This document shows, in pieces, positions 27,634-30,195 of a stretch of 30,598 bases of DNA. A program made the position numbers and the translations under genes. The DNA is from a virus, in IMG/VR virus record IMGVR_UViG_3300029309_000217, positions 1 through 30,598 of that record, one strand, 5' to 3'. Under the pieces are notes generated by a model, which had not been told where the DNA came from, ran no database searches, and was given only the letters and a program-made list of their open reading frames with translations. Numbering within the stretch: position 1 is the first letter of the stretch; the number at the start of each line of letters is the position of its first letter.

Positions 27634-27997
27634 CTACATCTTCTGCTTTAGCGTCTATAACCAATGGTAAAGGCTCGTTAATGTTTTCGGTTTGGGTTCT
27701 ATCTTTCATTCCTAGATAGTTTTTACTTAACCAAATCTGCATATGGGTGTTATCTTTTTTAACTGCCTTATCCCACATTTTCTTTCTTAAACTAGCTTTA
27801 CCCTTTTCTTTAAACTGCTCTACAATATCTGCATAATTTCTTTTTAATGTTTTAGCTGATATATTTAAAACACTTGCTATTTCATAATCAGGACAGCCAA
27901 TAGAGGCTAAATTCTTTAGTATTTCTATATCGACCACTATCTTGGGTCTTCCAGCACCCTGTCTTTTTTCTGTCTTATTTGCCTTAATTTTGTCCAT
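27626..27997 (-). CDS. Terminase small subunit-like HTH protein
   Basis: The 123-residue protein begins with a Lys-rich tail and GAGRPKIVVDIEILKNLASI, then CPDYEIASVLNISAKTLKRN, a helix-turn-helix. A C-terminal helix SLRKKMWDKAVKKDNTHMQI leads to WLSKNYLGMKDR. This is the usual small-subunit layout of marine siphophages (HTH followed by a WLGKxxLGQKD-like motif). It recognises packaging sites for the large subunit. It follows the methyltransferase gene with a 14-base overlap. Confidence 0.82.
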   Translation of the reverse strand: MDKIKANKTEKRQGAGRPKIVVDIEILKNLASIGCPDYEIASVLNISAKTLKRNYADIVEQFKEKGKASLRKKMWDKAVKKDNTHMQIWLSKNYLGMKDRTQTENINEPLPLVIDAKAEDVDG

Positions 27998-29207
27998 TTT
28001 CTAACTCTGCCTTTTTCCCTGTAAAGTTCTCCCATCTTTTAATAATTACATCACAGTATTTAGGGTCTAATTCAATAATATAACATATCCTATTTAATTT
28101 TTCACAGGCAATTAATGTCGTTCCTGTGCCACCAAAACAATCTAAAATTAAAGAATTTATTGATGTAAAATTTTTTATAATATTTTCAGGTAAATAAACA
28201 GGAAAAGTTGCTTTATGTATTTTACTATATTGATTACCAGTTGCATTTTTTCCCTCAATAACATTATAATAAGAACCTTGTGTAAATTGATAATTTTTAA
28301 ATCTTCTTTTACCATCTCCAAATGTTAATATAAATTCTACCAAGTTATTAATTATTCCTTTTTGAATATGTGGAGCAACAGAGGATTTTTTCCAATAGAT
28401 TATATCTTTAAATTTATTTTTAAAATTATGTATTAAATCAAATATAGATTTTTTGTTGTTTTGCACTAAACCTATATTATAAAAAACTTCTTCTGAATAT
28501 TTTAATAAATAAGTTAAATTAATATTAATAAATTTATCATATTCGTCTAAACTCATATTATCTTCAAAATTATTATATTTTTTTTCTGTTCTGCTATTTC
28601 CATCAATATTTAATGACCCAGCATTATAAGGTGGAGAGGTAAATGTAATATTGCATATTTTATCATCTAATATTTTTTTATATGTATCTTCATTAATACT
28701 ATCCCCACACATAAGTCTATGATTACCAAGTTTCCAAATATCTCCTAATTTAGTTATAGGTTCTTCAGGTGCTTCAGGTACTTCATCTTCATCAGTTAAA
28801 CCTTGTTTCTCCTCAAATAACATATCGTTTAGTTGATCTTCATTAAAACCTAATAAGTCTAATTTAAAATCTTTAGCCTCTAAATCTTTTATTTCCATTT
28901 TAAGTAATTCACTATCCCACTCGGATTCTTCAGCAGTTCTATTATCAGCTATTCTATATGCGTTTATCTGTTCTGGTGTAAGATTGTCAGCAATAGTTAT
29001 CGGTACTTCTTTAAAACCTAATTTTTTAGATGCTCTATACCTAGTGTGGCCTACAACAATAATTCTATCTTTATCAACTACTATAGGCTGTCTAAAGCCA
29101 TATTCTTTTAAAGACATAGCAACCTTTTCTATAGCTGAGTCTTTTAATTTTCTAGGATTGTTCTCATAAGGTTTTATTGTATTTATATCTGCATTTTCTA
29201 TTTTCAT
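27984..29207 (-). CDS. ParB-like nuclease/DNA methyltransferase fusion
   Basis: The start at 29207 has GGAGAT upstream and overlaps the preceding TAA (TAATG). The N-terminal ~125 residues are a ParB/Srx-type domain (IKPYENNPRK 11-20, VVGHTRYRAS 51-60, QINAYRIADNRTAEESEWDS). The C-terminal part is a beta-class methyltransferase, with SPPYN (191-195, motif IV) before DCFGGTGTT (356-364, motif I). SPPY suggests N4-cytosine or N6-adenine methylation. No restriction gene is adjacent, so it is an orphan enzyme. The central ~130 residues are Asn/Lys/Ile rich and AT-richer than neighbours. It precedes TerS directly. Confidence 0.88.
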   Translation of the reverse strand: MKIENADINTIKPYENNPRKLKDSAIEKVAMSLKEYGFRQPIVVDKDRIIVVGHTRYRASKKLGFKEVPITIADNLTPEQINAYRIADNRTAEESEWDSELLKMEIKDLEAKDFKLDLLGFNEDQLNDMLFEEKQGLTDEDEVPEAPEEPITKLGDIWKLGNHRLMCGDSINEDTYKKILDDKICNITFTSPPYNAGSLNIDGNSRTEKKYNNFEDNMSLDEYDKFININLTYLLKYSEEVFYNIGLVQNNKKSIFDLIHNFKNKFKDIIYWKKSSVAPHIQKGIINNLVEFILTFGDGKRRFKNYQFTQGSYYNVIEGKNATGNQYSKIHKATFPVYLPENIIKNFTSINSLILDCFGGTGTTLIACEKLNRICYIIELDPKYCDVIIKRWENFTGKKAELENGQN

Positions 29208-29491
29208 TATATCTCCAATTTTTTCATTTCTTTTATGCAACCAATAGGAAAGACATTTACATCTCCAAATACTGCCTCTTTATCATCATGTGAAGCAAAA
29301 GTTTTTAAAAAGTTTTTATCTTTAGAAAATACATAGGCTTGAGTTACCATAACACTAGGCTCAAATTTTTTAATATCATCTACTGTGTGCCAACCAGAAT
29401 CTCCTGTAGGGTCTGAAAATTTAATACTGTAAAAGTAGTATTTCTTGTTCGATATTGAAATGTGTCTAAATTTTGACTTTTTTCTGACCAT
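29207..29491 (-). CDS. Conserved hypothetical protein (94 aa)
   Basis: The product has SNKKYYFYSIKFSDPTGDSG followed by WHTVDDIKKFEPSVMVTQAY, VFSKDKNFLKTFASHDD and VFGDVNVFPIGCIKEMKKL. The 'I-x-W/F-x-D-P-x-G-D-S-x-W...TxAYVFsKDkxxLxTFASxD...FGDxxVxPxGCI' pattern is recurrent in marine phages, function not established. Its TAA overlaps the methyltransferase ATG, so the two are coupled. Confidence 0.68.
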   Translation of the reverse strand: MVRKKSKFRHISISNKKYYFYSIKFSDPTGDSGWHTVDDIKKFEPSVMVTQAYVFSKDKNFLKTFASHDDKEAVFGDVNVFPIGCIKEMKKLEI

Positions 29492-29626
29492 TTAGTGCTT
29501 ATTATTATTTTCGCTTTCTACTATGGCTTTATAAAATTCAAGTTGCATCTTTAACCTTTTATTTTCAATAGACAGATTAATCAATCTTTTTCTGACATAC
29601 TTAAATATTCTTAGAATTGCACTCAT
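29492..29626 (-). CDS. Small basic helical protein (44 aa)
   Basis: The product begins MSAILRIFKYVRKRLINLSI and is a basic amphipathic helix with a polar C-terminus. Its ATG overlaps the TGA of the winged-helix gene (ATGA) and its TAA abuts the next ATG (TAAATG). The RBS is weak, so translation probably depends on coupling. Function unknown. Confidence 0.55.
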   Translation of the reverse strand: MSAILRIFKYVRKRLINLSIENKRLKMQLEFYKAIVESENNNKH

Positions 29627-30195
29627 TGGTATTCTTTCAGAGGCTCATCTTTCCATTTATGTTTTAGAAACTTTTTAGAGTCTTTCAAGATGATGTTATA
29701 TTCTCCCCAATCCCCAATTTTCTTATAATCTTCCTTGCTAGACTTCTTTTGTGATATATTAGATTCTAGTGTATTAGTATAGTTTATTAGATACGCGTGA
29801 TCGTTGGTGAGTCGTTGGTTATCCACAGGGTCAACATATTGGAACTTGTCGTAATTAACCACAGAAACTATAGTTATTTTGCTATACTTAAAATCATTCG
29901 TTGGTTTCAATGTGGTGAGTCGATGGTTTATCATGCCTCGTCTTTTCAACCTTAAAATGAAACTTCGCATAGCAGAATAAGGTAAATTCCAAATCTTAGC
30001 ATTTTTTCTCAAAGGAAATATTAACTCGCCTCGTTTTATAAATATTTCATTATCTAAATATCTAGCTGTCTTATCTCTATGACTTGCAGAACTAATCATA
30101 TATAGCCAGATAGCTGACTCTACTAAATTTTTAAATACAGGGTGTTTCCATACATCTCTATAAACTAGAAAATATCCTGACTTTCTACTTTCCAT
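29623..30195 (-). CDS. Winged-helix replication protein, lambda O-like
   Basis: The 190-residue product has an N-terminal winged-helix domain typical of phage replication initiators: KSGYFLVYRDVWKHPVFKNL, AIWLYMISSASHRDKTARYL, GELIFPLRKNAKIWNLPYSA, MRSFILRLKRRGMINHRLTT. A charged, Lys-rich C-terminal tail carries no helicase motif. Its gene contains direct repeats and a perfect DnaA box (29801-29928), recalling lambda O, whose origin lies inside the gene. It would bind the origin and recruit the host helicase. It is shorter than lambda O (299 aa). A transcriptional regulator is the alternative. Confidence 0.75.
   Translation of the reverse strand: MESRKSGYFLVYRDVWKHPVFKNLVESAIWLYMISSASHRDKTARYLDNEIFIKRGELIFPLRKNAKIWNLPYSAMRSFILRLKRRGMINHRLTTLKPTNDFKYSKITIVSVVNYDKFQYVDPVDNQRLTNDHAYLINYTNTLESNISQKKSSKEDYKKIGDWGEYNIILKDSKKFLKHKWKDEPLKEYQ
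29801..29928. other. Candidate replication origin: repeats plus DnaA box
   Basis: Plus-strand TCGTTGGT occurs at 29801-29808, 29812-29819 and 29898-29905, and TCGATGGT at 29920-29927. A 16-base unit, TGGTGAGTCG(T/A)TGGTT, is at 29805-29820 and 29913-29928 with one mismatch. TTATCCACA at 29819-29827 is a perfect DnaA box touching a repeat. TTAACCACA at 29855-29863 differs from it by one base. The adjacent 29756-29793 stretch is AT-rich and could melt. All lie within the initiator-like gene, as in lambda. Confidence 0.6.

Follow-up and report, generated by a model that had tools for sequence, protein, structure and literature searches.

A probable replication origin within the initiator gene of a marine phage related to SAR11-infecting viruses

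In phage lambda, ori combines iterons with an AT-rich element inside the initiator gene O (PMC7466680), the iterons being near-perfect inverted repeats of ~19 base pairs (bp) that bind O dimers (PMC5043065). Gene 18 of phage L carries six 11-bp TGTCCAACGGA repeats that have been proposed as its likely origin (PMC8022706). The RepA_N initiator of pSK41 binds repeats in the middle of rep through a winged-helix N-terminal domain structurally akin to DnaD, and the part of the protein encoded by its ori is a linker (PMC5703833), while P1 oriR, pSC101, and R6K join direct, helically phased iterons to one or more DnaA boxes and an A+T-rich region (PMC5043065). Here, we describe a locus in the IMG/VR virus record IMGVR_UViG_3300029309_000217, of which positions 1 to 30,598 were analyzed (the window, below, is this whole 30,598-bp stretch). 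An array of 11-bp direct repeats lies within the coding sequence of a gene for a winged-helix protein, and we consider it very probable that this is a phage replication origin inside the gene of its own initiator. A sequence-only reading of the window had proposed an origin there, and the proposal is supported by comparative predictions, a DnaA box, and the layout of phage HK620.

As in phage L gene 18, ST160 gp18, and the O genes of HK620 and HK022, the window pairs a winged-helix-type initiator with 11-bp direct iterons set at 11-bp steps in two clusters, and, as in those lambdoid and P22-like origins, the array lies directly behind a Y-x-x-[YF]-Q motif. The HK620 record annotates a rep_origin within O, where the DNA reads TACCAGCAGAT-TACCAGCAAAT-TACCAC twice (3+3 iterons) at 11-bp steps right behind YDDYQ. 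HK620 O is a distant homologue of the window protein, with an alignment that spans residues 2 to 155 at 25% identity. Arrays with an 11-bp step occupy the same place in HK022, ST160 gp18 (GTCCAACGGAT), Klebsiella phage Chronis, Pseudoalteromonas phage HS2, and two Staphylococcus aureus phages, and a weaker one does so in Erwinia 59. Those of HK620, HK022, ST160, HS2, Chronis, and IME1361 exceeded the maximum of their own synonymous shuffles; those of StauST398-4 and Erwinia 59 did not. The ST160 iteron and the window iterons have CCAACG in common. Given the same-position arrays and the proposed origin of phage L, the putative window origin belongs to a known kind, and the occurrence of such arrays in lambdoid, P22-like, Pseudoalteromonas, and staphylococcal phages suggests a general rule for locating origins from initiator genes.

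The comparison also brings out differences. Both HK620 clusters lie 3′ of the motif, 66 bp apart, whereas cluster 1 of the window falls in codons of the wing. The HK022, ST160, and Chronis records differ in having a DnaB-type helicase gene immediately after the initiator gene, and neither HK620 O nor the S. aureus IME1361 gene yielded a TTATNCACA box. In the window, as in lambda ori, the initiator gene contains both iterons and an AT-rich element; the window units, unlike those of lambda, are direct and 11 bp long, and a lambda-type ori was rejected on that ground. The repeats of pSK41, like those of the window, are central in the initiator gene, and they lie in its linker-coding part, but pSK41 has four Rep boxes there, and DnaA boxes have so far not been detected in staphylococcal plasmids. 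With P1 oriR, pSC101, and R6K the window shares direct, helically phased iterons, a DnaA box, and an A+T-rich region. The iterons of these three are longer than 11 bp, and to our knowledge none of these origins sits within initiator coding sequence. New here are an iteron cluster in wing codons, DnaA boxes that exceed what codon use would give by chance, an ACTAATA element, and concerted turnover that can be traced.

Read on the gene strand, the array consists of five 11-bp units resembling AACCA[T/A]CGACT in a 3+2 layout, 268 to 397 bp into the initiator gene (Table 1). Three TCGTTGGT (starting at 29801, 29812, and 29898) and one TCGATGGT (starting at 29920) had been picked out by the sequence-only reading, and these repeats are real and nonrandom: when the gene was shuffled among synonymous codons 2000 times, a GC-containing 8-mer reached three exact copies in 3 trials. 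Their starts are, as described, 11, 86, and 22 bases apart; the further suggestion that these steps approach whole helical turns fails for the 86-bp step (~8.2 turns), and the 22-bp step hides a degenerate copy, CACCACATTGA, the true period being 11 bp. The two near-identical 16-base units said to lie 108 bases apart (29805 to 29820 and 29913 to 29928) are 94% identical. They share one reading frame, encoding NHRLT and NQRLT, and the frame constraint deduced from 108 being a multiple of three applies to this pair but not to the remaining copies, which occupy other frames. With three frames in use, a repeat in the protein does not account for the pattern. TCGWTGGT did not occur outside these repeats in the 30,598-bp record, so that in the window the repeats are restricted to the initiator gene; recurrence elsewhere at similar density had been named beforehand as evidence to the contrary. 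When one mismatch is allowed, TCGTTGGT has 22 matches across the contig versus 9.9 expected. Isolated loose copies elsewhere are therefore meaningless, and it is the cluster that counts.

Table 1. Features of the initiator gene and its putative origin in the window
Feature	Position	Strand	Remarks
Initiator gene	29623..30195	minus	190-amino-acid winged-helix protein; matches to phrog_27581 and phrog_2514 (DnaD-like helicase loader)
Iteron A1, AACCATCGACT	29918..29928	minus	Cluster 1, wing-coding DNA
Iteron A2, CACCACATTGA	29907..29917	minus	Cluster 1, degenerate middle copy; CCA kept in 11-bp register
Iteron A3, AACCAACGAAT	29896..29906	minus	Cluster 1
Iteron B1, AACCAACGACT	29810..29820	minus	Cluster 2, linker-coding DNA
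Iteron B2, CACCAACGATC	29799..29809	minus	Cluster 2
DnaA box, TTATCCACA	29819..29827	plus	Adjoins iteron B1, with a 2-bp overlap with 29810-29820; sole TTATYCACA in the record
AT-rich, easily melted segment (candidate unwinding element)	29746..29798	none	Adjoins cluster 2

Relatives of the initiator gene were collected from viral-contig scans and dereplicated to 82 genes (<95% DNA identity). These relatives keep the array but vary its sequence, with some clades also shifting the register, while the copies within one genome match. In many of them, repeats of another sequence can be seen at this position (ACCACCTA, CCACTTAC, ACAGCCCA, AGCCCAGC, or TAATCAG/CCTAACCA). Self-match at lag 11 was 464 in the 82 genes versus a synonymous-shuffle mean of 56 and maximum of 79, and lags 10 and 12 stayed inside the null range. 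In an unbiased scan of 75,466 pairs of 9-bp segments in 45 genes for pairs more alike within than between genomes, iteron-iteron pairs ranked top, at distances of 11, 94, and 105 (z up to 8.8). Of the 66 genes with Glu at residue 75, 38 have C as the fifth base of every one of the five iterons and 19 have a base other than C in every one, even though the copies place this base at different codon positions. A tree inferred from the 5′ portion of the gene (array excluded) offers six supported independent contrasts, which gave near-complete agreement and practically no disagreement (P = 0.031 for most site pairs, the lowest value possible with six pairs). The clades use three CCA registers, which fall at or near gene positions 282/293/304 and 376/387, 270/281/292 and 378/389 (the register of the window), and 281/292/303 and 378/389, and all three keep 11-bp steps. 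The array, with its periodicity and concerted change, is a feature of the DNA, selected independently of the protein. Looking for the same repeats in related phages with divergent coding sequence, as had been advised, found the array persisting and its copies changing together.

The AT-rich DNA noted earlier beside the repeats is real: positions 29750 to 29794 reach the 98.7th percentile of duplex instability within the contig, and in relatives the 45 bp following cluster 2 reach about the 95th. On the minus strand of the window, CTAATA occurs three times (29785 to 29790, 29772 to 29777, and 29757 to 29762), and across the 82 relatives ACTAATA is ~100-fold denser in the AT-rich segment than in the flanks. 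The dipeptide T-N is coded as ACT-AAT-A in 93 of 104 cases in the segment, compared with 57 of 585 in flanking open reading frames (codon control, P = 8e-62) and 0 of 38 toward the 5′ end of the gene. The ACTAATA repeats are held at the DNA level. Strand opening would be their natural role; alternatively, they may serve single-strand capture.

The perfect DnaA box reported to abut a repeat was confirmed as TTATCCACA, overlapping the B1 unit. Across the 82 loci, TTATCCACA occurs 28 times in 46 kilobases (kb) of initiator genes and is absent from 453 kb of flanks; TTATTCACA occurs 15 times in initiator genes and once in flanks. Without exception, the 43 exact boxes read on the strand opposite to that of the gene, and each sits at one of two sites, directly 5′ of cluster 2 or on the 3′ side of the AT-rich segment. 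All TTATYCACA boxes of the window record, of HTVC111P, and of HTVC202P lie inside the initiator gene. Because every exact box corresponds to V-[DN]-[NK] in the protein, codon choice served as the control: this tripeptide is coded GTG-RAT-AAN in 43 of 58 cases in initiator genes versus 1 of 165 in flanking open reading frames (P = 6e-32, an optimistic value, since the sequences are related). On the tree, one box state changes at least 12 times and the other at least 13 times. A consensus DnaA box beside the iterons is a feature of the DNA beyond codon chance. The second, one-mismatch box of the sequence-only reading, TTAACCACA at 29855, was rejected as neither conserved nor enriched; it is lost in a close relative (L008) and occurs three times in genes and three times in flanks.

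The source phage is marine and kin to SAR11-infecting viruses, and its initiator is a member of the pelagiphage HTVC111P group. The closest named phages by protein are the Pelagibacter phages HTVC111P, HTVC026P, and HTVC202P (50 to 53% identity), whose records label the homologous genes “DnaD domain protein.” A Pfam scan of the 190-amino-acid protein gave no accepted match and a single spurious subthreshold one, and a PDB sequence search gave no significant match. An AlphaFold2 model built from an alignment of 38 sequences (the window and virus contigs) has a winged helix at residues ~24 to 118, with wing strands at 89 to 95 and 106 to 112, a disordered linker at ~120 to 157, and then a small C-terminal beta domain. 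Viral structure matches include O proteins and “replisome organizers.”

From these features, we infer how initiation might proceed. The winged-helix domain would bind the 11-bp direct iterons, one helical turn each, its targets being three iterons in wing-coding DNA and two in DNA coding for the disordered linker. Initiator bound at both clusters would bend the intervening DNA into a compact complex. Together with host DnaA at the adjacent box, where one exists, this complex might open the ACTAATA segment 3′ of cluster 2, and the host DnaB helicase could then be loaded onto the opened segment. We are evenly divided on the full version of this picture, a hybrid origin wholly in coding sequence with iterons in wing codons, DnaA at GTG-RAT-AAN boxes, opening at ACTAATA, and iterons and initiator changing together across SAR11-phage lineages.

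Several points weigh against an origin at the array or against parts of its proposed working. The exact TTATYCACA box is missing from 44 of the 82 genes, so DnaA cannot in this form be a family-wide requirement, and at P1 oriL the DnaA sites inside repL can be mutated without effect (PMC9948254). Both observations favor a reading in which the origin is real and the boxes serve host-growth sensing or titration instead of origin opening. We regard this as possible but somewhat short of an even chance, since the boxes keep to two places and to one strand, a placement like that in plasmid origins that combine iterons with DnaA boxes (PMC5043065). GC skew, suggested earlier as a check, was computed for the window, HTVC111P, HTVC202P, and pooled flanks and gave a divided answer in the two complete relatives. 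Minima of the detrended cumulative skew (5730 in HTVC111P and 5452 in HTVC202P) lie ~80 bp or less from the arrays (5653 and 5391), whereas the raw minima (4044 and 3795) fall at the gene-strand switch, ~1.6 kb from the array. The measure is confounded by the gene-strand switch and the C-rich array; it is compatible with an origin at the array and lends it no support. A PDB fold search returned no match reaching an E value of 0.001; in favor, its weak, generic winged-helix matches include entries titled “Structure of initiator” and “Rep-DNA complex,” and the initiator structures 4pt7 and 5kbj, a parallel to pSK41, are likewise among the weak matches.

Iteron-bound initiators often autoregulate, and the iterons described here could also serve autoregulation. 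Taken further, the repeats would be an operator through which the winged-helix protein represses or times its own early operon, with replication starting elsewhere. The array is indeed transcribed with the gene, but it lies well inside the gene instead of at a promoter, a DnaA box and the unstable ACTAATA segment adjoin it in an origin-like manner, and the corresponding HK620 array carries a rep_origin annotation, all of which leave the operator reading very unlikely. That codon bias and a repetitive peptide (NxRLT...TND) generate the repeats as a by-product, as the single frame of the 108-bp pair might hint, can be dismissed, given copies in three frames, a signal that disappears in synonymous shuffles, shifting registers, and concerted change across lineages at different codon positions.

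Pelagiphages are described as ranking among the most abundant ocean viruses (PMC10504331), and in the titles and abstracts returned by a literature search, no pelagiphage replication origin was apparent. If an origin inside the initiator gene is correct, the phage start site and its dependence on the host through DnaA would be predictable from sequence, and the joint change of iterons and initiator from lineage to lineage would be a natural record of how origin specificity evolves. The 82-gene set holds concerted turnover of presumed binding sites with at least six supported independent contrasts, making joint specificity switching of initiator and origin directly testable.

Some further observations concern the relatives and the boxes. 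Residue 75, in the recognition helix, is A in the clade of the window, E in 66 genes, and S, T, or R in the rest, and it tracks iteron type and register. We considered a pattern of A75 with CCAACG, E75 with CCAC-type cores, and S75 with others; there are too few independent changes to claim a simple link between this residue and iteron type. A scan of genome contigs found a sole relative, L172 (DIAL01000097.1; 58% identical), within a metagenome-assembled genome of doubtful origin; its contig is binned as Flavobacteriaceae and is probably a misbinned free phage contig. Distant winged-helix initiators (L195, L203, L088, L196, L197, L199, and L200) have arrays of 11-bp period directly behind [YW]xx[YF]Q. 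Across the 82 loci, TTATCCCCA, a DnaA box with one mismatch, occurs five times in initiator genes and 0 times in the 453 kb of flanks, and strong boxes seem to be avoided outside the initiator gene, the absence of TTATCCACA from the flanks comparing with 5.6 copies expected. Shortly downstream of the initiator gene in the window, positions 27984 to 29240 (minus strand) encode a ParB-like N-terminal domain fused to an N6/N4 DNA methyltransferase.
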